A DNA stretch of 33,924 nt from assembly GCA_031269415.1 (NCBI GenBank), contig JAISZF010000285.1:1-33924 (forward strand), given 5' to 3'. The position numbers were made by a program, and so were the translations under genes. The notes beneath the pieces are model-generated. The model was not told where the DNA came from. It did not search any database and was given only the letters and a program-made list of their open reading frames with translations. This DNA comes from Clostridiales bacterium. GTDB taxonomy: Bacteria; Bacillota; Clostridia; Lachnospirales; WQUN01. Of this stretch, positions 6,816-31,620 are shown one piece after another (position 1 is the stretch's first letter; every line of letters begins with the position of its first letter).

Positions 6816-7970
6816 TTATTTAGTGAAGCCCGTATACGAAAGCATCAAACCGCCGGTGGAATTATTCCCGTCGTCCTCGTACCCATACTCGCCGAACGTA
6901 AATTGCATCATAAACGGGACATCGCCCGCTTCCGCCTTAACCGCTTCCGCGACCTCGTTCAGCCTGTCGCCGATACCCGCCCTGCGGCCTCCGCAGTGTA
7001 CCAGCAGGAAACCGGCGGGCTCGGCGGTCATTTTTTCTTTCAACGCCTTCAGCGTTTCGGACGCTGAAGCGATCAACTCGTCCACAGTGGATTCCATTCG
7101 GATAACCGCGGTCTTTTCAGCGAGATTAGCGCCGATATTCATCGAGTAGTCGTCATTGCCGTTCATGGGATGGCGGATGGCCGTTAGATCGCCAAGTCTG
7201 TCCTTAATGCCGAGCGGAGAGGTAATCGTGGCGACAAGCAGGTTGCCTCCCATAATAGTGTCGGGATCAACGCCGCGCCACTCCGCGTACTTTTTAACCG
7301 CCGGTACGCCGTCTATCTCCTCCAGCACGCGGTTGTCGCGCACTTTGGTGATAATTCCAACATCGTCCGTTTCCCGGTAAGCGCCGGTAAAGAGATTCAC
7401 CGCGGGTTCGCCGCCGTAGAAAAACGCGACGGCCACGCCGTCCGCGAAAGCTCCCTCGTCCGTATAGACCTTCCACTCGCCCGAAATAGTGTTATCCGCC
7501 GCGCTGCCGCCGAAAAGCGGCTTGCGTCCGATAACATCCGATATACCCTTTAAAAAGAATTCCTCTTCGCCGGGAGGCGCGGCCATATAAAAGTAATCCG
7601 GCGATCCGTTTGCCTCGGCGGCGGCCAGCGCGGCCATTTTACCCGTGTCTCTGGCGCTGCCTTCCTTAGGCAGGCCTTTAACGCCCACATAGAAATCCTC
7701 ACCGCTTAACAGCATTACGCCCACGAATCCCTCGTCGCCGGTTATGTATCCCTCCGGGGTTATTACGCCGGTAAACGACGTATTCCCAATAACGGGAACC
7801 CCGGGAAGCGCTTCCTTTACACCCGCCAGAAGCAAGTCCATGTCGTACGCTACGCTTGAATACACAAGCGCCAATTTCGCGCTTTCAACGCCGTCCTCCG
7901 CCTTCCGCGCGGCGGCCTTCCCAGCCGATTTGGCGCAAGACAGAACGCTTGAGCCGATTGTGCATTTCAT
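6816..7970 (-). CDS. FIST N/C domain sensory protein
   Basis: A 384-residue stand-alone FIST protein. The N-terminal FIST domain has ALVYSSVAYDMDLLLAGVKE and VIGNTSFTGVITPEGY. The C-terminal domain has LFGGSAADN, VAVAFFYGG and a final GGRRAGIGDR...FTFGEYG ending. FIST domains are ligand-binding modules, proposed to sense amino acids or similar small molecules, and are usually attached to chemotaxis or signalling domains. Here nothing is attached and there is no membrane segment, so it may be a cytosolic sensor or an enzyme-like protein. The ATG at 7970 is preferred over the upstream codon at 7991 because GAGGGAGG lies just before it. It is the first gene of an apparent two-gene operon with an aldehyde dehydrogenase. 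Confidence 0.85.
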   Translation of the reverse strand: MKCTIGSSVLSCAKSAGKAAARKAEDGVESAKLALVYSSVAYDMDLLLAGVKEALPGVPVIGNTSFTGVITPEGYITGDEGFVGVMLLSGEDFYVGVKGLPKEGSARDTGKMAALAAAEANGSPDYFYMAAPPGEEEFFLKGISDVIGRKPLFGGSAADNTISGEWKVYTDEGAFADGVAVAFFYGGEPAVNLFTGAYRETDDVGIITKVRDNRVLEEIDGVPAVKKYAEWRGVDPDTIMGGNLLVATITSPLGIKDRLGDLTAIRHPMNGNDDYSMNIGANLAEKTAVIRMESTVDELIASASETLKALKEKMTAEPAGFLLVHCGGRRAGIGDRLNEVAEAVKAEAGDVPFMMQFTFGEYGYEDDGNNSTGGLMLSYTGFTK

Positions 7971-8013
7971 CAAAAAACCTCCCTCGTTCATTCAATCTAA
8001 TGGTGCTGTATTA

Positions 8014-8041
8014 AGTATAAATCAATAAAAACGCTTAGCAA
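8014..8041 (-). promoter_or_regulatory. Probable promoter of the FIST-aldehyde dehydrogenase operon
   Basis: On the minus strand TTGCTA (8041-8036) and TATACT (8019-8014) are separated by 16 bases, about 45 bases before the FIST start codon. Confidence 0.5.
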
Positions 8042-8104
8042 GCTGACGGTTCCAAATATCCGCCGGCGCGTTCCGCTAGGAGGAACAGGGATTAAACGCC
8101 GTAA

Positions 8105-8138
8105 AAATAAAAGCGTGGGTTATCCCACGCTTTTATTT
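8105..8138. terminator. 15-bp perfect hairpin terminator
   Basis: AAATAAAAGCGTGGG (8105-8119) and CCCACGCTTTTATTT (8124-8138) form a perfect 15-bp stem with a TTAT loop; the A/T-rich outer half works as a U-tract in either direction. It insulates the FIST promoter from transcription of the amidase gene. Bases 8139-8267 hold no convincing gene. Confidence 0.75.
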
Positions 8139-8269
8139 GCGGACGGTTCAGAACCTAAATTCGATTGGATGTACTCATCAATGCAGTCTATGACTTTGTT
8201 TTTAGAGTTGAGCAAAGAACATGGACGAACTTATGTTTATTCCAGTCGAATTTCCAGCAAATAAAATAA

Positions 8270-8296
8270 GGCAAGGAAACGCTCGGTTCCCCTGCC
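8270..8296. terminator. Imperfect hairpin at the end of the amidase gene
   Basis: GGCA-A-GGAA (8270-8278) pairs with TTCC-CC-TGCC (8287-8296). On the minus strand it follows the amidase stop (8303) by six bases and runs into a TTATTTTATTT tract. Its sequence resembles the terminator at 5322-5352, as if both derive from one element. Confidence 0.5.
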
Positions 8297-8302
8297 CTTC
8301 GC

Positions 8303-9136
8303 TTAACCTTTATCAGCGCCCATCGCCCTATAGATCATTGAGGCGCACTCTTCTCTGGTCGCTTTATCGCGCGGCCTTGTGCCGTCTGTAACGCCGTTCT
8401 CGATAGCCCATTCCCACGATTTTTCCGCCCAGTCGGAAGGCCCCGTTTCCTTCGGGGGAACCTGTACTCCCGCGCTCATCGCGTTGTGAATATCCGTCTT
8501 CATCTGTTCCCAGGCTGAAGGATTATTCACGTAATAGAGCGGACATAGTTTTCCTGTTACGTCATAATGCCTCTTAACATTGTTGAACGCGTTGAACCCA
8601 TGCCGTTCGCATATATCGGCGGTAAGCTCAATCAGTGCTTTGTACGTTACCGCGCTGAATTTCCCCGTCTTATCCGGATGACACACCTCAATCCCCAAAT
8701 AGGTCGAGTTGTTTGTTTTCGCCTGTTCCGTCCAAGCCGCTCCATAGGCCCTGCCCGCGTGCATAGCGCGTTCATTTTCAGGTATCAAACGAAGTATCTC
8801 GCCTTGCAGACCCACAATATAATGGCAGGATGTGCCGTTGCCGTCCGAACCGTTTTCAAAGTAATTTCTGTTCGCCAGCGCGCTTGAGCCGGGGTTTGCC
8901 ACATAGTGGATCACAACGCCCTTGGCGTTCAGCTTTTGACCCGTGCGCCCGTGAGACGCGCCGGGCGTCAGCAGTTTGTCGGTAATAACCGGCGCTCCGA
9001 ATGTCTGAGGCAGGATCGCGGAGTCCGAGGTTGTTTCGCCCGCGCATTTCCGCCCGATAAAATAACCAGCGGCGCCTGCCGCCAGCATACCCACGCCGGC
9101 CGCAAGCGCAACCGCCCATTCATATTCCGTATTCAT
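8303..9136 (-). CDS. Membrane-anchored N-acetylmuramoyl-L-alanine amidase (amidase_2) with one SLH-like repeat
   Basis: A 277-residue protein. Residues 7-28 form a Gly/Ala-rich transmembrane anchor or uncleaved signal with a GxxxG-type face. Residues 65-215 are an amidase_2/PGRP-like catalytic domain with probable zinc ligands His77 (VVIHYVAN), His190 (VKRHYDVTG) and Cys198 (KLCPLYY), plus catalytic Glu150 in YLGIEVCH. Such enzymes cut the lactyl-Ala bond of peptidoglycan. Residues 235-272 (DWAEKSWEWAIENGVTDG, then TREECASMIYRAM) match a single S-layer-homology repeat; three repeats are the usual number for wall binding. AAGGAGG precedes the ATG at 9136. It may be phage- or sporulation-related in origin, but the context gives no support for either. 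Confidence 0.88.
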   Translation of the reverse strand: MNTEYEWAVALAAGVGMLAAGAAGYFIGRKCAGETTSDSAILPQTFGAPVITDKLLTPGASHGRTGQKLNAKGVVIHYVANPGSSALANRNYFENGSDGNGTSCHYIVGLQGEILRLIPENERAMHAGRAYGAAWTEQAKTNNSTYLGIEVCHPDKTGKFSAVTYKALIELTADICERHGFNAFNNVKRHYDVTGKLCPLYYVNNPSAWEQMKTDIHNAMSAGVQVPPKETGPSDWAEKSWEWAIENGVTDGTRPRDKATREECASMIYRAMGADKG

Positions 9137-9259
9137 TCTAGAACCTCCTTGTTCAAATCGAATTAGTACAATATATGATTAAAGACGGGAGGCGCTACTA
9201 ATTTGGATAAATAAAATATCGAGTCCTTCAGCCCAATAGCTTCATCTCACTTCATACAC

Positions 9260-9294
9260 AAAAGACGCCGTACGTAAACCGTACGGCGTCTTTT
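9260..9294. terminator. 15-bp perfect hairpin terminator after the GG-leader peptide gene
   Basis: AAAAGACGCCGTACG (9260-9274) pairs perfectly with CGTACGGCGTCTTTT (9280-9294) around TAAAC. It lies 18 bases beyond the peptide stop, ending that transcript before the amidase gene. Confidence 0.85.
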
Positions 9295-9311
9295 AACTCA
9301 GCTCATCGTTA

Positions 9312-9572
9312 TTATAGACCGAATAAATTAAATATAGGAGTGCCGATGGCGCTTATCACATCTAAGACGCCATGTGCTTTTGTATTCACAACCTTAGCGT
9401 TTGATGTGTTAACTAAACCCGTCACAGCTTGAAAACCTATGCCCACAATGCCGAGTATAGTGTTGAATATAGAACCGCCTATAGTCGGCAGACCCAACAG
9501 GCCGCCCCTGACTTGCGTCGACTCTTCCGTATTCAGTTCCGTAAAACTGGAATTAACCAATTCCTTTTTCAT
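9312..9572 (-). CDS. Double-glycine leader peptide precursor (putative bacteriocin or signalling peptide)
   Basis: An 86-residue ORF with a strong GAGGAGG 8 bases before its ATG. The first 24 residues form a double-glycine leader: hydrophobic or aromatic residues at -15 (Phe10), -12 (Leu13) and -4 (Val21), acidic Glu at -9 and -8, and Gly23-Gly24 at the cleavage point. This is the pattern recognised by peptidase C39 ABC exporters; the usual -7 Leu/Met is Ser here. The predicted 62-residue core (LLGLPTIGG... to NLFGL) has no cysteine, is rich in Gly, Ile, Val and Leu, and has GIVGIG, like unmodified class II bacteriocins. No C39 transporter, immunity gene or modifying enzyme is in the window. 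It could instead be a non-bactericidal secreted peptide. The gene is monocistronic, closed by the terminator at 9260-9294. Confidence 0.65.
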   Translation of the reverse strand: MKKELVNSSFTELNTEESTQVRGGLLGLPTIGGSIFNTILGIVGIGFQAVTGLVNTSNAKVVNTKAHGVLDVISAIGTPIFNLFGL

Positions 9573-10056
9573 TTTATGACCTCCTCGCAGATTATACGCC
9601 GCTTGTATCGACAGCCCCTCCTCTTAGTACAGGGGCGGGATTAACAAAGCTAGCTTATTTATGTATTAAAACGACAATATATTCAATAAATTGAATTTTT
9701 TATCGTTTATAGTATTATTATAAGAAATTTAAGATATTTTGTCAATACGTGAAGTATAGAAAATATTTGGAAACCAGAGTAATGGTATTGCCTGATAGTA
9801 GAATCCTCAGCAAACGTTAACATGAAAAACTATTAAATATATTTAAAACGAGCAGATATTTAATAGTCTTATACAACATAAATTTGCCGATGTAATTTTT
9901 ACGCCTATAGCAGACGCTAAGATCCATTTATCGCTGTACCCTTTGCGTCTCGTTTTATATAATCAAGCCGCTCTTAAATCATCAGAAAAATTCTTTTCAA
10001 CTTATTTCTTGATAAATATAACAAATTATATGAATAAAATTTAGTGCATATTACTA
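9573..10056. other. AT-rich intergenic region without a clear gene
   Basis: About 480 bases, much more AT-rich than the flanks. It contains a GCCCCT/AGGGGC inverted repeat (9614-9619/9631-9636), a 12-bp inverted repeat (9829-9867) and, on the plus strand, a 65-codon open stretch (9847-10044, ending in TAG) reading ...FADVIFTPIADAKIHLSLYP.... That stretch has no ATG or ribosome binding site at its head and I do not recognise it; it may be a gene remnant. A TATAAT (9588-9593) lies just before the GG-leader gene on the minus strand but lacks a convincing -35. Confidence 0.5.
9829..9867. repeat. 12-bp perfect inverted repeat in the AT-rich gap
   Basis: ACTATTAAATAT (9829-9840) and ATATTTAATAGT (9856-9867) are exact reverse complements, 15 bases apart. 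This could be a regulator site or a weak AT hairpin; no T-tract follows. Confidence 0.5.
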
Positions 10057-24974: not shown

Positions 24975-25535
24975 ATGACGGATTGCGAGCGTTTCAACCA
25001 TGATACTGAAGCCCTAGCGCTGGAAGCCCTACAGAACGGCTTTTCCCACGCGGGCGAACTGAATGTCAAGTCGCTGGTTTTCATGCCGGAAGTAAGGGAA
25101 ATGTGCAGTGTTGACAAATGCCGGCAGTATAACAGAAACTGGCGGTGCCCCCCAGCCTGCGGCTCCGTTAAGGAAGCGGCGGAGCGCGCCGCGCGGTATT
25201 CATACGGCATTATCGTTCAAACGACCGGGCTGATGGAGGACGACTTCGATTATGAAACCATTCAGGAAACCGGGGAGAAGCACAAACGCAATTTTGCCGG
25301 GTTCGTCGCCAAACTCAGGAGCCGCTATCCCGACATACTGCCCATGGGCGCGGGCACATGCGATATATGCGAAACATGCGCGTATCCCGACGCGCCGTGC
25401 CGCTTCCCCGACCGTTCTATTTCTTCCATGGAAGCCTACGGCCTGTGGGTAAGCAAGGTATGCCAGTTGTCCGGAATGCCGTATAACTACGGAAAGCTGA
25501 CGCTTACTTACAAGAGCTGTGTTTTGCTTAATTAA
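24975..25535 (+). CDS. DUF2284 predicted metal-binding (probable iron-sulfur) protein
   Basis: A 186-residue cysteine-rich protein. Two clusters are seen: Cys44, Cys49, Cys58 and Cys62 (with NWRCPPACG), and Cys129, Cys132, Cys135 and Cys142 (CDICETCAYPDAPC), matching the DUF2284 family, presumed to hold iron-sulfur clusters or other metals. The function is unknown. Anaerobes often carry several copies near redox or corrinoid genes; no such genes are adjacent here. The start is uncertain: ATG 24975 has only a weak AGTGG upstream, and GTG 24963 would add four residues. A 19-bp perfect hairpin terminates it immediately after the stop. Confidence 0.82.
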   Translation: MTDCERFNHDTEALALEALQNGFSHAGELNVKSLVFMPEVREMCSVDKCRQYNRNWRCPPACGSVKEAAERAARYSYGIIVQTTGLMEDDFDYETIQETGEKHKRNFAGFVAKLRSRYPDILPMGAGTCDICETCAYPDAPCRFPDRSISSMEAYGLWVSKVCQLSGMPYNYGKLTLTYKSCVLLN

Positions 25536-25536
25536 C

Positions 25537-25577
25537 GATATAGAAAAGCGTCCCCAAAGGGGACGCTTTTCTATATC
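25537..25577. terminator. 19-bp perfect-stem terminator
   Basis: Bases 25537-25555 (GATATAGAAAAGCGTCCCC) are the exact reverse complement of 25559-25577, with an AAA loop. The outer A/T-rich half provides a U-tract in both directions. It lies one base beyond the DUF2284 stop. Confidence 0.9.
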
Positions 25578-25580
25578 ACT

Positions 25581-25844
25581 AAGAGTTTCGCCATTACACA
25601 AAAAAACCTGGATAGAGCTCGACTCGGGGTCAACAATCCAATACTCTTTCACGCCATGCTTTTCATATTGTTTTTTCTTCTCAACAATATCAATTTTCGC
25701 GGTACTGGGCGATAGAATCTCAACGATCAGATCCGGCGCGCCATGTATGCCATTGGCTTTCCTTTTGCTTCTGTCGCATAACACAAATACGTCCGGTATA
25801 AATGTGTTATCCTTATCCAGTATAACATCCAGCCCATAATACAC
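25581..25844 (-). pseudogene. Uma2-family (PD-(D/E)XK endonuclease-like, DUF820) remnant, truncated at both ends
   Basis: About 88 codons match the central/C-terminal part of Uma2 proteins: FIPDVFVLCDRSK, GAPDLIVEILSPSTAK (the catalytic E-x-L-S-P-S element), and YEKHGVKEYWIVDPE. The first 80 or so residues of a normal 190-residue Uma2 protein are missing. At the other end the frame runs straight through the terminator hairpin at 25537-25577 into antisense of the DUF2284 gene, so the native C-terminus is lost too. It follows the stop of the permuted binding protein in the same reading frame. No ribosome binding site precedes the GTG at 25844. It is most likely debris left by the rearrangement that changed the binding-protein gene. 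Confidence 0.7.
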
Positions 25845-25862
25845 GCCCTCTTCGCGAGTCTC

Positions 25863-27602
25863 TTACTCCCCTAAAGCCTCCGTGTAACCCGCGATAGACT
25901 CAAACATATACGCGTAGTCGGCGGCGGTTTCCGGGTTAATGGCTCGAACCCAACTGTCCACGAACGTCTGGGCGGTAATGGGGGTTCCGTCGCTGAACTG
26001 TATGCCGTCGCGCAGATGAAACGTATACGTAAGACCGTCGTCGCTGACGTCAACGCTCTCCGCCTGGCCGGGAATCGGCACGCCGTTATCATCCAGCGTG
26101 TATAATCCCTCGAAATTATGGATTATAAGGGTGGCGCCGTCAACAGCTGAGTTGAGCGCCGGGTCGATTGTATCCGGATTCGGCCCGATGCAGACGTTCA
26201 ACTCCGGCTGGTTCGCGTACATTAAGTACTTATAGCCCAGCGGTGAAGCCCATACGCTGCCGTCCAAAGCGTTGTTCTGCATGTAAACGTCCACATAATA
26301 GTAAATCGGGCAGAGCATCCACTCGTCAAATATAATGTTCTCCGCCTGATGCATCAATTCCATGCGTCTCGCCTGATCACCGGAGTTCTTGATCTCGGAT
26401 ATAAGCCCGTCATATTCGGTATTCGACCACTGGGCGTCGTTGTTTCCGCCGTCCGTAATCCACATGTCGAGGAATGAAATGGGGTCGTTATAGTCCCCCA
26501 GCCAGCCGTTGCGGGCGACTTGATATTCCCCGTTTTTACGGGTGTTCAGGAAAGTAGCCCACTCTTGGCTTTCAAGAGTTACTGTGGCGCCGAGTTCGCT
26601 CCACATCTGCTGAAGGGCTTCGCCAATGGCCTGGTGGCCCGTGCCCTCGTTGTAAACATAGGTTACGGTAGGCAGTCCTTCGCCGTTGGGATAACCGGCT
26701 TCGGCCAGGACTTCTTTCGCTTTCGCGAGATTAGCCTCATTGCCCGCGCTGGTCGGGTCATAGTAATCGCCGCCCACATCACGGAATTCCTGTGAGGCGT
26801 CTGCGTCGGTCAAGCCGACAGGTACATACGCGCCGGCGGGAATCTGCCCGGCTTTGCCTATCTGCGTGACGATATAATCACGGTCGACAGCCAGCGTAAA
26901 CGCCTGCCTTACAAGCGGGTTGTCGAACGGGGCGGCGGTTACGTTATAGCTCACATAATATGTGCCAAGCTGGCCTTCCTTATGGAAATCGGGCTGAGAC
27001 GACACGCGATCCAGTTCATCCTGCGGAATAGCGTCGATGAATTGAAGCTGGCCCGACTCGTATGCCGTAAGCTGAGCCGCGTCGTCTTCCATCAGCGCGA
27101 AACTGATTGTATCGGGTCCCAAGTTGGCGGCGTTCCAGTAAGTGGTATTCTTTTCCGCTACGATCTTATCGCTGGGGGTCCAAGCCGTCACTTTGTACGG
27201 TCCGTTTCCAATGTAGGTGGCGGCATCAGTCGCCCACGCCTCGCCCACTTCGTCGATGATATGCAAGGGTACCGGGTTGAAAGTGGGAAACGCGGTCAGT
27301 TCTAGGAAATAAGGCGTTATGGCGGTCAGTTTTACCTCCAGCGTCTTATCGTCTATTGCCTTGACCTGAAACGCGTCCGGGTTAAAGCCCGAAGTCTCTC
27401 CTTCCGAGGCTGGTTCTTCTGACGGCGCGGTGGACTCGCTGGCCGCCTCGCTCGGCGTTTCAGCCGCCGCTTCGCTGCTTGCCGCGGGCGGCGCCGCTTC
27501 CGAGGAAGTCGTCGGCGCGTTAGCCTCAGCGCCCCCGCCGCATGACGACATAAGCATTACGACGCCTAACGCCAGACTTACCGCTCTAAGCTTTTTCTTC
27601 AT
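25863..27602 (-). CDS. Oligopeptide/dipeptide ABC substrate-binding lipoprotein, circularly permuted
   Basis: A 579-residue SBP_bac_5 (OppA/DppA-type) protein. Residues 1-20 are a lipoprotein signal, Cys21 the lipid anchor (LMSSC), and 22-68 a Ala/Ser/Glu/Pro linker. From ETSGFNPDAFQVKAIDDKTL onward it is the middle and end of the family, through NGPYKVTAW, LVRQAFTLAVDRDYI and the natural C-terminus ...LGYKYLMYA (residue 463). There is then no stop: residues 464-579 (NQPELNVCIGPNPDTIDPAL ... FHLRDGIQFSDGTPITAQ ... YTEALGE) are the segment that is normally at the N-terminus. A canonical protein would read linker, 464-579, then 69-463. The gene is last in an opp operon and is expected to bind peptides or nickel/heme-like ligands. 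Whether the protein folds is unknown; a rearrangement or assembly error is possible. Confidence 0.85.
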   Translation of the reverse strand: MKKKLRAVSLALGVVMLMSSCGGGAEANAPTTSSEAAPPAASSEAAAETPSEAASESTAPSEEPASEGETSGFNPDAFQVKAIDDKTLEVKLTAITPYFLELTAFPTFNPVPLHIIDEVGEAWATDAATYIGNGPYKVTAWTPSDKIVAEKNTTYWNAANLGPDTISFALMEDDAAQLTAYESGQLQFIDAIPQDELDRVSSQPDFHKEGQLGTYYVSYNVTAAPFDNPLVRQAFTLAVDRDYIVTQIGKAGQIPAGAYVPVGLTDADASQEFRDVGGDYYDPTSAGNEANLAKAKEVLAEAGYPNGEGLPTVTYVYNEGTGHQAIGEALQQMWSELGATVTLESQEWATFLNTRKNGEYQVARNGWLGDYNDPISFLDMWITDGGNNDAQWSNTEYDGLISEIKNSGDQARRMELMHQAENIIFDEWMLCPIYYYVDVYMQNNALDGSVWASPLGYKYLMYANQPELNVCIGPNPDTIDPALNSAVDGATLIIHNFEGLYTLDDNGVPIPGQAESVDVSDDGLTYTFHLRDGIQFSDGTPITAQTFVDSWVRAINPETAADYAYMFESIAGYTEALGE

Positions 27603-27644: not shown

Positions 27645-28607
27645 TCAACCGCGTCCGGGGAAATGACAGGCGACAAAATGCCCCTTTTCCGTTTCGTCAA
27701 GAGCGGGCTCTTCCTCCGAGCAGCGCGCCGCCGCGTATGGGCAGCGCGGGTGGAACCGGCATCCGCTGGGCGGATTCAATGGACTGGGAACGTCGCCCTC
27801 TAATATTATACGCTCCCGCTTCCTCGCCTTATTCGGGTCGGCTATGGGTATAGCGGAAATAAGGCTTCGGGTATACGGGTGAACACCGCGCAGCGTTATC
27901 TCGCCGCTTTCCCCTGTCTCAACTAGTTTACCCAAATACATGACTCCGATTCTGTTGGAGATGTGTTTTACAATAGACAAATCATGGGATATAAACAGGT
28001 ACGTAAGCCCGTTTTCCTCTTGAAGGCGTTCAAACATGTTTACGACCTGAGCCTGAATGGATACGTCCAAAGCCGACACTGGCTCGTCGCACACGATAAA
28101 CTCGGGATCGACCGCCAAGGCGCGGGCTATGCCTATTCGCTGGCGCTGTCCGCCCGAAAATTCGTGCGGGTAGCGGTTGGCGTGTTCCGAATTAAGGCCG
28201 ACCTTATCCAATATAGAGATTATACGATCCGCCCTGTCCTTTTTGCCAGAAGCGAGTTTATGTATATCAATGGCTTCGCCCACAATCTCGCCGACTGTCA
28301 TCCGTGGATCCAGCGACGCGTAGGGATCCTGAAACACAATCTGCATCTTGCGCCTGTACGGAAGCATGGGCGCTTTTGTAATGTCGCTGCCGTTATATGT
28401 TATACTGCCGCTGGTAGGCTCGTAAAGCCTGAGAATTGTGCGCCCCAGCGTAGTTTTGCCGCAGCCGCTCTCGCCCACGAGACCGAATGTTTCCCCCGGC
28501 GCGATTGTCAGGCTGACGCCGTCCACGGCTTTAACCTTTTTCTTGCTCAAAAAGCCGCCTACCGGAAAATACTGGCGGAGTTCCCTTGCCTCTATCAGAT
28601 TCGTCAT
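27645..28607 (-). CDS. oppF: Oligopeptide ABC transporter ATPase, OppF type
   Basis: A 320-residue ATPase. Walker A is GESGCGKT (45-52), ABC signature [10 protein letters not shown], Walker [14 protein letters not shown], and the Opp/Dpp C-terminal extension has a cysteine-rich [16 protein letters not shown]. It pairs with OppD to drive peptide import. I start at the ATG at 28607, which overlaps the OppD stop (ATGA). The longer reading from 28754 would lie within oppD and begin with unrelated residues. The pattern [20 protein letters not shown] at the N-terminus is diagnostic for OppF. Confidence 0.94.
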
Positions 28608-29611
28608 TGCGCTCCGCCCTTTCCGGCGGCCTCGAAAGCCGCCTTCTGACTCAGCCAGCACAGACTGTAATGCGTATCCGAGAATTCGCCGACGGGCGGC
28701 ATTTCGCGGACGCATATCTTCATGCAAGACTCGCACCTTGGGGCGAACGGGCACCCCGCGGGCGGGTTAAGCATGTCTACCGGCGAACCCGGTATTGGCG
28801 TAAGCTCCTGTTTCTCATCGTCGTCCAAAAGGGGTTTGCTGCGCAAAAGCCCTTTTGTGTATTCATGCCGGGGATTATAAAACACCTCGTCGGTAGTGCC
28901 GTACTCCACAATCTTGCCCGCGTACATAACCGCTATCTTCTCGCAGATAGACGCCACCACGCCCAAATCGTGCGTAATAAGGATAATAGCCATCCCTAAA
29001 CTTTTGCGCAGCGACTGCATTAATTCCAGTATCTGCGCCTGAATGGTCACGTCCAAGGCGGTGGTAGGTTCGTCGGCGATAAGCAGTTTCGGCTCGCAGG
29101 CCAGCGCCATGGCTATCATCACGCGCTGGCGCATTCCTCCCGATAGTTCGTGAGGATATTGGCGCATACGCTTTTCAGGCTCGTTTATGCCCACTAGGCT
29201 CAGCATCTCAACAGCGCGTGCCCACGCTTGTTTTTTGGGTTTGCCCGAGTGCAGCCTTATGGCTTCCATAATCTGGCCGCCTATGGTAAACACGGGGTTC
29301 AGGCTGGTCATAGGGTCTTGAAAGATAATAGATATCTGATTGCCGCGGATGCTCTCCATTTGCTTATCAGACATAGTGTCCAGCCGCTGGCCGTTGAACG
29401 ACAGCGAGCCGCCCAAAAAGCGTCCGGGGCGCGGCACAATGCCCAGCAGGGAGTACGCGGTCACAGATTTGCCGCTGCCGCTTTCGCCCACAATCCCTAA
29501 AACCTCGCCGGTTTTCATGCGGAACGTAACGTCGTTTAAGGCTTTCACCTCGCCGGCCGGCGTAAAGAAGGAGAGCCTCTCGTTTTGGACATCCACAAGA
29601 TATTCGCTCAT
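28604..29611 (-). CDS. oppD: Oligopeptide ABC transporter ATPase, OppD type
   Basis: A 335-residue ATPase. Walker A is GESGSGKS (42-49), signature [12 protein letters not shown], Walker [13 protein letters not shown], and the C-terminal extension has [12 protein letters not shown]. The start follows GAGGAG by about 7 bases. Its 3' end overlaps oppF by four bases, so the two ATPases are co-translated in equal amounts. It lies 10 bases after oppC. Confidence 0.95.
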
Positions 29612-29621
29612 ATGGGTCTCC

Positions 29622-30677
29622 TCATTTCTTCAGCTTGGGATCAAACGCGTCACGCAGACCGTCGCCCAACAGATTGAAAGCCAGTATGATGACGGCGATG
29701 AATACGGCGGGGATAAATATGCGGTAAGGATAACTCTGCAGGCCGTCGAGGCCCATTTTCGCCAGGCTGCCCAACGAGGGAAGCGGGGCGGCCACGCCCA
29801 TGCCGATGAAACTCAGGATGCTTTCGGTAAAAATTGAAGACGGAATCTGAAGCGTGGTAGTAATAATAAGCAGACCGATAGAATTACTGAGCAGATGTTT
29901 GCTGATAATTCTCCAGTGACTCGCGCCAAGCGCCCGCGCCGCGGTCACATATTCCATTTCTTTAAGCTGCAGCACCTGCCCGCGCACCAAGCGCGCCATT
30001 CCAACCCAGTAAAGCATGGTAAACACGATAAATATGCATATGAGGCCAACCCCAAAGGTATTGATCCACGCGAAAGACCTCGATGAATCCGCCAGGGCTT
30101 TCAATGGGGCTTTCAGCGTAACCGACAGCAGAATAATAATTAAAATATCAGGAATGGTGTAGATGATGTCAACAATCCGCATCATGATCATATCTACCCA
30201 GCCGCCGAAATATCCCGACACCGCCCCGTAAACAGAGCCGACCAGCAGTATGAGGGCAGCCGCCACCATGCCGACGGTAAGTGAAATGCGCGCGCCGATC
30301 ATTACGCGTATGGCAAAGTCCCTCCCCAGGTTGTCGGTGCCCAGGATGTGCGGAAACACATTGCCCCCCGAAGCCATTATGTCTTTCTCCGTCTGGGAAT
30401 ATTGCATGGGGAACAGGTTCTCACTGCCGCGGATCTGCCATTCATATGTGTACGGGTAGAAAACCGGCACAATGAAGGCTATAACAAAAACTACCAGCAA
30501 AACCCCCAAACTGACCATCGCTATGGGGTTCGCGGTCAGCCGGCGCACTCCGTCTTTCCAAAACCCCACGCTTTCGCGCATTACCACAAGCCGTTCTTTT
30601 TCGGATTCATCAGCCGGGAGGAAGTCATCCACCCGTAAATGCATACTAAACGGCGCAAGCTTAGGCTGTTTTTCCAT
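29622..30677 (-). CDS. oppC: Oligopeptide ABC transporter permease, OppC type
   Basis: A 351-residue permease with a cytosolic N-terminal region of about 45 residues and six membrane helices. LGTDNLGRDFAIRVMIGARI is characteristic of OppC/DppC. The ATPase-docking EAA-like loop is in YVTAARALGASHWRIISKHL. GGAGGTGA precedes the ATG at 30677. It ends with LLGDGLRDAFDPKLKK, the usual C-terminus of the family. Confidence 0.95.
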   Translation of the reverse strand: MEKQPKLAPFSMHLRVDDFLPADESEKERLVVMRESVGFWKDGVRRLTANPIAMVSLGVLLVVFVIAFIVPVFYPYTYEWQIRGSENLFPMQYSQTEKDIMASGGNVFPHILGTDNLGRDFAIRVMIGARISLTVGMVAAALILLVGSVYGAVSGYFGGWVDMIMMRIVDIIYTIPDILIIILLSVTLKAPLKALADSSRSFAWINTFGVGLICIFIVFTMLYWVGMARLVRGQVLQLKEMEYVTAARALGASHWRIISKHLLSNSIGLLIITTTLQIPSSIFTESILSFIGMGVAAPLPSLGSLAKMGLDGLQSYPYRIFIPAVFIAVIILAFNLLGDGLRDAFDPKLKK

Positions 30678-30702: not shown

Positions 30703-31620
30703 CTACTTCAGTTGAATCCGCTGATCCAGTAACTTATTCAGCACGTCGGACAGGATGTTAAAACCAATAAGAAGCGCCGCCAGAAATAATGTGGTGCCCA
30801 TAATCACCGTATAGTCCCGGTTAGTGATAGAACTGACAAAACTGTTGCCTAAGCCGGGTATAGTGAATATACCCTCCACCACGAAGCTGCCTATCAGAAT
30901 GAACGCCAGCGCCGGCCCGAGATAAGTGATAATAGGCCCGACGGCGTTGCGCAGGGCGTGCTTGAAGATACGAACGGCCCAAGGCAGCCCCTTAGCCTGG
31001 GCGGTACGCATGTAATCCTGGCCGAGTACATCCAGCATCGACGATCGCATCAGCCTTGTGATATACGCCGTAGGGTAAAACGCTAACGCCGCTACAGGCA
31101 TTATGTAATTCTTCGGGCCGTCCAGCCCAATAGACGGCAGCCACCCCAGTTTGAGGCTGAATATATACATAAGCAGCGCGGACGTGATAAAGGATGGCAT
31201 TGCGATACCGACCGTGCTTATGACCAGAATTGTGTTGTCCCCGGCCCGCCCTCTTTTAAGGGCGGCCAAGCAGCCCAACGGAATGCCCGCGAACAGGGCC
31301 AGAACCATTGCCGACCCCCCCAGCCTGGCGGATATAGGAAACCTTGTACCGATTCTATCGTTGACCGTGCGCCCGCGCTGCTTCATGCTGGGCCCTAAAT
31401 CGCCCTTCAGCACGTTGGTCATGTAGTTCCCGTACTGGACTATAACCGGCTTATCCAACCCATACTTCTTCTCCAGAGCCGCCAGCGTGGAGGCGCTCGG
31501 TGTTTTCTCGCTGAGAAAAGGCCCTCCCGGAACCAGGAACATCAGAAAGAATGTGAGTGTGGATACAACAAACAACGCCACCAGCCCTAGTAACACACGC
31601 TTTAAAATATACCGCGGCAT
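30703..31620 (-). CDS. oppB: Oligopeptide ABC transporter permease, OppB type
   Basis: A 305-residue permease starting MPRYILKRVLLGLVALFVVS, with six membrane helices, the family signature YGLDKPVIVQYGNYMTNVLK (external loop), and docking loop YMRTAQAKGLPWAVRIFKHA. It is the first gene of the operon, with GAAGGGGGAA as ribosome binding site and a strong promoter 40-70 bases upstream. Confidence 0.95.
   Translation of the reverse strand: MPRYILKRVLLGLVALFVVSTLTFFLMFLVPGGPFLSEKTPSASTLAALEKKYGLDKPVIVQYGNYMTNVLKGDLGPSMKQRGRTVNDRIGTRFPISARLGGSAMVLALFAGIPLGCLAALKRGRAGDNTILVISTVGIAMPSFITSALLMYIFSLKLGWLPSIGLDGPKNYIMPVAALAFYPTAYITRLMRSSMLDVLGQDYMRTAQAKGLPWAVRIFKHALRNAVGPIITYLGPALAFILIGSFVVEGIFTIPGLGNSFVSSITNRDYTVIMGTTLFLAALLIGFNILSDVLNKLLDQRIQLK

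Follow-up and report, generated by a model that had tools for sequence, protein, structure and literature searches.

The 33,924-nucleotide stretch of DNA analyzed here (contig JAISZF010000285.1 of the Clostridiales assembly GCA_031269415.1; hereafter, the window) raises the question of whether an open reading frame in which the parts of an SBP_bac_5 peptide-binding protein follow one another in swapped order is a natural circular permutant and, if so, whether it still works, how widely such proteins recur and by which route they came about. The gene, found in a gut bacterium, encodes 579 amino acids (27602..25863, minus strand) and ends a complete oppBCDF operon whose four genes were all found upstream on the same strand, in agreement with the preliminary description of an otherwise normal opp operon; the binding-protein gene thereby adjoins oppB, oppC, oppD and oppF, as is characteristic of an OppABCDF importer. 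The relevant features are the following.

30703..31620, minus strand: oppB permease gene (BPD_transp_1; domain search)
29622..30677, minus strand: oppC permease gene (BPD_transp_1, OppC_N; domain search)
28604..29611, minus strand: oppD (ABC_tran and oligo_HPY; domain search)
27645..28754, minus strand: oppF (ABC_tran and oligo_HPY; domain search), given from the first possible start
27390..27602, minus strand: signal peptide and linker of about 50 residues rich in Ser, Ala, Glu and Pro (sequence, lipobox scan, AlphaFold2 pLDDT)
26211..27389, minus strand: block X, residues 72-464, normally the C-terminal three quarters (Pfam and family HMM)
26493..26495, minus strand: codon of Asp370, the residue that lines up with E. 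coli OppA Asp419 (alignment)
26205..26213, minus strand: new internal join N-Q-P between KYLMYA (natural C-terminus) and ELNVCIG (natural N-terminus) (sequence)
25866..26204, minus strand: block Y, residues 467-579, family positions 3-113, normally N-terminal and now C-terminal (Pfam and family HMM)
25863..25865, minus strand: stop codon; the new C-terminus lies in the loop by which Y is normally linked to X (sequence)
25524-25862, minus strand: remnant of a Uma2 (PF05685) nuclease gene, of which only the 3' portion without the start is left, abutting the stop codon of the permuted gene

Membership in SBP_bac_5 is evident from the match to PF00496 (297 bits against a cut-off of 32.4), which falls into two swapped stretches, profile positions 61-367 coming before positions 2-65. 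Against a 509-position family HMM derived from homologues in normal order, residues 72-464 score 561 bits over positions 117-506, and residues 466-576 score 160 bits over positions 3-113. Both blocks are single-copy and in frame, only about three positions being unmatched at the cut and five at the join, and the family positions are thereby complete (3-113 and 117-506 of 509). The boundaries drawn in the preliminary description (KYLMYA at residue 463, ELNVCIG from 467, end at YTEALGE) are correct, its reading that all parts occur once and in frame is borne out block by block by Pfam and the HMM, and the separate profile matches it had proposed as a check come out in the swapped order. The canonical linear order of the domain, which is usual in the family without being a formal criterion of it, is absent, and the protein is filed as a permuted variant. 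Block X aligns to chain residues 135-511 of B. subtilis OppA and to residues 135-508 of E. coli OppA, block Y to chain residues 20-127 of the former; the scan for lipoboxes retrieves MSSC at residues 18-21, with Cys21 as the cysteine expected of a lipoprotein. The open reading frame is thus confirmed, at the level of sequence, as a circularly permuted SBP_bac_5 peptide-binding protein that has lost almost nothing and is probably lipidated. Since the Uma2 gene that abuts the stop is truncated, the 3' side of the permuted gene must also have been rearranged; the six bases GAGACT, shared by the sequence following the stop and the beginning of X, were dismissed as too short for a duplication scar.

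The same order was found in related genomes, where the preliminary description had suggested looking for it. It extends over the full length in a congener (G001, or L093; JAITDJ010000019), whose protein P0002 is 84% identical to the window protein P0001, in L094 (JAGPHI010000053; 62% identity) and in G005 (or L096; BNUF01000008; about 55% identity), and a search of a plasmid collection yielded a fifth case of this type, hereafter type A, behind oppBCDF on a circular 215-kb record (L261) of Subdoligranulum variabile TSDC17.2-1.1, a cultured isolate from the human gut (PMC7939548). The N-Q-P join is the same in G001, and comparable short joins occur in L094, G005 and L261, the length being equal in P0001, P0002, L094 and G005 and different in S. 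variabile. The S. variabile permutant (L261 7885-9675) also bears, past the moved block, a Ser/Ala-rich tail of about 40 residues resembling a lipoprotein linker. A normal-order orthologue, L095 (JAITEB010000019), is located in a sister operon and is 82-88% identical to P0001 per block; what is expected of a natural permutant is therefore found, namely a normal protein (L095) to set against permuted ones (P0001, P0002, L094, G005, L261), blocks that occur once each, and more than one genome.

Both blocks are maintained by purifying selection, as indicated by a dN/dS between P0001 and P0002 of 0.09 overall (0.094 in X and 0.040 in Y). That the protein may fold, as the preliminary description had allowed, is backed by a high-confidence AlphaFold2 prediction of P0001 (pLDDT about 95 over residues 70-579, pTM 0.81), in which pLDDT drops below 50 only at residues 1-69, the disordered signal peptide and linker. 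Because its 54-row input alignment comprised permuted homologues together with unaltered X and Y segments of normal ones, the model speaks for the compatibility of the permuted chain with the fold rather than proving that it folds. When the model was submitted to Foldseek, a colinear aligner, the best matches (B. subtilis DppE and OppA) were covered in a single block of about 388 columns with the remainder left out, as expected for a permutant. By prediction, the protein accordingly has the SBP_bac_5 fold, and the same may be said of a permuted protein from Bacilli with another cut site (L155, of the type C described below; pLDDT 86.7, pTM 0.83). As to the ligand site, Asp419 of E. coli OppA, which we take to anchor the amino group of the bound peptide, aligns with Asp370 of the window protein; the surrounding motif, GW..DYN(D/E)P, is retained by 40 of the 41 permuted open reading frames of the survey below, the remaining one being truncated.

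These data bear on three rival readings of the locus. The window genome is a fragmented assembly of 304 contigs, as are those of most type A relatives, and the sister genome with L095 has normal order, both of which could be taken to mean that the true gene is normal and that contigs were misjoined or misbinned; the independent genomes lead us to reject this, since the same permutation with both joins in frame is present in four others (55-84% identity), one of them on a circularized record from a cultured strain, permutations of other types are found in genomes assembled as a single contig (G436, G722 and G959), and the low dN/dS argues against it as well. An artefact is therefore extremely improbable. 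The preliminary description had held that a related assembly with normal order at this locus would expose an assembly error; such an assembly does exist in L095, but in view of the four permuted genomes and of purifying selection it attests to a real change of order between relatives. L093 and L095, both Nm470 bins, further come from the same sample series, as might be seen if a programmed or site-specific DNA rearrangement flipped the blocks within populations; however, the blocks of L095 and P0001 differ at 12-18% of their amino acids and carry heavy synonymous divergence as well, and their signal peptides are not the same, a divergence that points to separate lineages rather than to states of one genome and leaves switching with next to no credibility. 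Lastly, the truncated Uma2 gene would be in keeping with a local rearrangement that left behind a decaying pseudogene and no working protein, but there are no stops or frameshifts, the signal peptide is retained, selection on both blocks is strong, the gene is conserved across genera, the model is confident throughout and the genome has no second close copy to serve as a replacement, all of which makes decay very improbable.

We consider it highly probable, instead, that the gene encodes a functional natural permutant acting as the substrate-binding lipoprotein of an oligopeptide ABC importer, with lipidation, peptide binding and transport presumed from its sequence and setting. The natural termini are linked by three residues and new termini opened in a surface loop near family position 115; the permuted chain would adopt the usual two-lobed SBP_bac_5 structure and bind peptides in its cleft, while the lipid anchor would tether it through the linker, now attached at the loop near position 115, and peptides would be handed to OppBCDF as they are by normal-order orthologues. 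Relocation of the lipid anchor may also confer an advantage.

Regarding the history of type A, trees of re-ordered sequences do not group the permuted proteins into one clade: normal L095 joins P0001 and P0002 as their fully supported sister, G005 has normal L116 as its sister, and AU tests reject monophyly of the permuted proteins, with p-AU values of 4.5e-7 (all columns), 2.9e-7 (X), 0.036 (Y) and 3.7e-8 (S. variabile added). The OppBCDF tree returns the same two sister groups as block X (L095 with the window and G001; G005 with L116), an agreement that leaves horizontal replacement of the binding-protein gene alone unsupported and indicates that the order most likely changed in place, within a vertically kept operon. 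Parsimony requires three order changes in type A, as three gains or as gains plus reversions, and a single ancient permutation in the clade followed by two reversions, or by coexistence of both forms with gene conversion, is thus as parsimonious as recurrent permutation at that one loop; that P0001, P0002, L094 and G005 share one join length favors fewer origins. On the other hand, normal L095 and L116 carry C-terminal tails like those of other normal genes, which favors repeated gains, the S. variabile join differs in length, and none of the nine genomes examined holds both close forms together, for which reason gene conversion between the two forms within one genome was discarded. A single origin is accordingly conceivable yet somewhat doubtful, and it concerns only the history of the gene, not its identity.

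A join profile, in which the natural C-terminus is followed by the natural N-terminus and which normal genes match on one side only, placed the window protein in a wider class. Across some 1,150 Bacillota genomes (samples of 392 from the order, 391 from the class and 399 from the phylum, with small overlaps), join-spanning SBP_bac_5 matches were obtained in at least 37 genomes, counts that are lower bounds because thresholds were strict and scoring was limited to the top candidates of each genome. Domain order confirmed nearly all of them as permuted; unconfirmed is L218 (G1134 C1:904564-905127), from a single-contig genome, where an internal TGA interrupts what looks like a type D permutant. 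Together with the loci from scans of named genomes, there are at least 41 permuted open reading frames with four cut sites.

Type A (the window type): cut near position 115; 4 open reading frames, plus S. variabile found later
Type B: cut at family positions 266-270 (P0001 model residues 222-225); 8 open reading frames
Type C: cut at family positions 435-438 (P0001 model residues 392-395); 17 open reading frames
Type D: cut at family positions 346-349 (P0001 model residues 304-307); 12 open reading frames

Placed on the P0001 model, the type B, C and D cuts are predicted to fall in loops or at a helix end. Most permutants retrieved with their flanks adjoin a complete oppBCDF (those of G365 and G360 adjoin none), and several belong to genomes assembled into one contig. 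A tree of 106 re-ordered proteins (quick search, with SH-aLRT support only) needs 11 changes between normal and permuted order, nine of them forced by well-supported branches, and independent origins are directly apparent in the type B protein L212, which is 67% identical to a normal protein and at most 46% identical to other permutants. A recognizable lipobox is present in 30 of the 41 permuted open reading frames, most type D proteins apparently having a plain signal peptide, so that tethering cannot be the whole reason for permutation. Tentatively, and at less than even confidence, we read permutation in Bacillota SBP_bac_5 proteins as recurrent and partly convergent evolution, with at least nine order changes, four loops and repeated cuts at the same loop within a single small clade, the reason possibly being that relocation of the anchored terminus alters how the binding protein is presented to the permease.

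Several individual loci also stood out. The type C frame L068 1261-2451 (G349) ends after 396 amino acids, at family position 248, in a single-contig genome, as a frameshift or pseudogene; L207 (G144 C7), a normal-order protein inside the type C clade at an open fork of modest support, is a candidate reversion. A permutant suspected in G028 C15 from the order of matches is a normal gene, and a split Pfam match in G000 C268 reflects a normal-order protein with an insertion. The latter (L039 4313-6814), an SBP_bac_5 protein of 833 amino acids with a large insertion, adjoins an OppC-like permease of 558 amino acids (7904-9580) with an apparent insertion of about 200 residues before the permease domain. 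L051 (331-3333, minus strand, G024 C551; 1000 amino acids), suspected of being a fused double SBP, combines an N-terminal region reading as Ser/Thr-kinase-like, a transmembrane-like stretch and one complete normal-order SBP_bac_5, and is possibly a peptide-sensing receptor kinase.

As for the route, permutation by duplication has been reviewed (PMC3320104), and the preliminary description had proposed tandem duplication followed by loss of the outer halves. No permutants were found in 198 genomes of the Brachyspira phylum (Spirochaetota), where all three join-spanning matches are interrupted by stop codons; two of them were retrieved at full length and proved to be normal genes in tandem, spaced about 20 bases apart. 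L275 1585-4908 and L276 1885-5112, from this phylum, each hold tandem normal SBP_bac_5 genes in the same frame, separated by 15-18 bases, which the loss of one stop codon could fuse. Matches on Phyllobacterium and Nitratireductor plasmids were set aside because their annotation reveals no permutation; Phyllobacterium plasmid pT1293a carries four normal SBP genes in tandem, with 60-190 bases between neighbors. The precursor arrangement consequently exists, in some cases in frame with only a stop and about 20 bases between the copies, although the Spirochaetota indicate that tandem copies alone are not sufficient in every lineage. The proposed route is hence plausible, but no fused or half-trimmed intermediate was found among the genomes surveyed; tandem duplication in place, with fusion and trimming, is the likeliest origin, repeated in the family at four loops.

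Compared with the SBP_bac_5 proteins OppA and DppE of B. subtilis (8ARE, 8AY0) and OppA of E. coli and S. typhimurium (3TCF, 1B05), the window protein shares both blocks, the predicted fold, the Asp419-equivalent motif and the oppBCDF operon, but its first 115 or so family positions come after the natural C-terminus, whereas all four PDB chains, aligned residue by residue, have normal order. Nothing on permuted SBP_bac_5 proteins was found in the open-access literature, most subscription papers lying outside the search, and to that extent the earlier statement that no natural permutation of this family was known stands. The one solved precedent located comes from another SBP class: Tp0684 (TpMglB-2) of Treponema pallidum, an ABC-importer lipoprotein of the 'Type Ic / Cluster Bc' kind that is circularly permuted, has been shown to bind ligand and has Gram-positive relatives; a tie to membrane tethering was suggested by the authors of that study (PMC4990184). 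Tp0684 resembles the window protein in being a natural circularly permuted lipoprotein of this kind, but it belongs to the sugar-binding Type I/cluster B class and has one cut site, while the window protein is SBP_bac_5 by family and structural matches, so that the two are analogous and not members of one group. The moved part of Tp0684, moreover, is 13% similar in sequence to a normal one, as against up to 88% identity in the window type, where common descent is therefore plain, whereas for Tp0684 it was uncertain. Saposin/swaposin, DNA methyltransferases and cpRAS GTPases are natural circular permutants of other folds (PMC3320104, PMC2430557), commonly attributed to the same kind of gene rearrangement, permutation by duplication; unlike them, SBP_bac_5 exhibits four cut sites and has normal and permuted orthologues in equivalent operons.

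Natural circular permutation and permuted SBPs being already known, what is new is the recurrence, the four cut sites and the pairing of normal and permuted orthologues in equivalent operons. Annotation masks such proteins, all of which are labeled SBP_bac_5 and lose their moved part in colinear alignments. Permutation of a binding protein of about 500 residues is usually a design exercise, and the natural series of permuted and normal proteins, spanning four cut sites and many levels of divergence, makes folding, ligand binding, tether geometry and the permutation route directly testable. A family thought to be fixed in its layout has, in nature, been rearranged repeatedly while apparently continuing to work.
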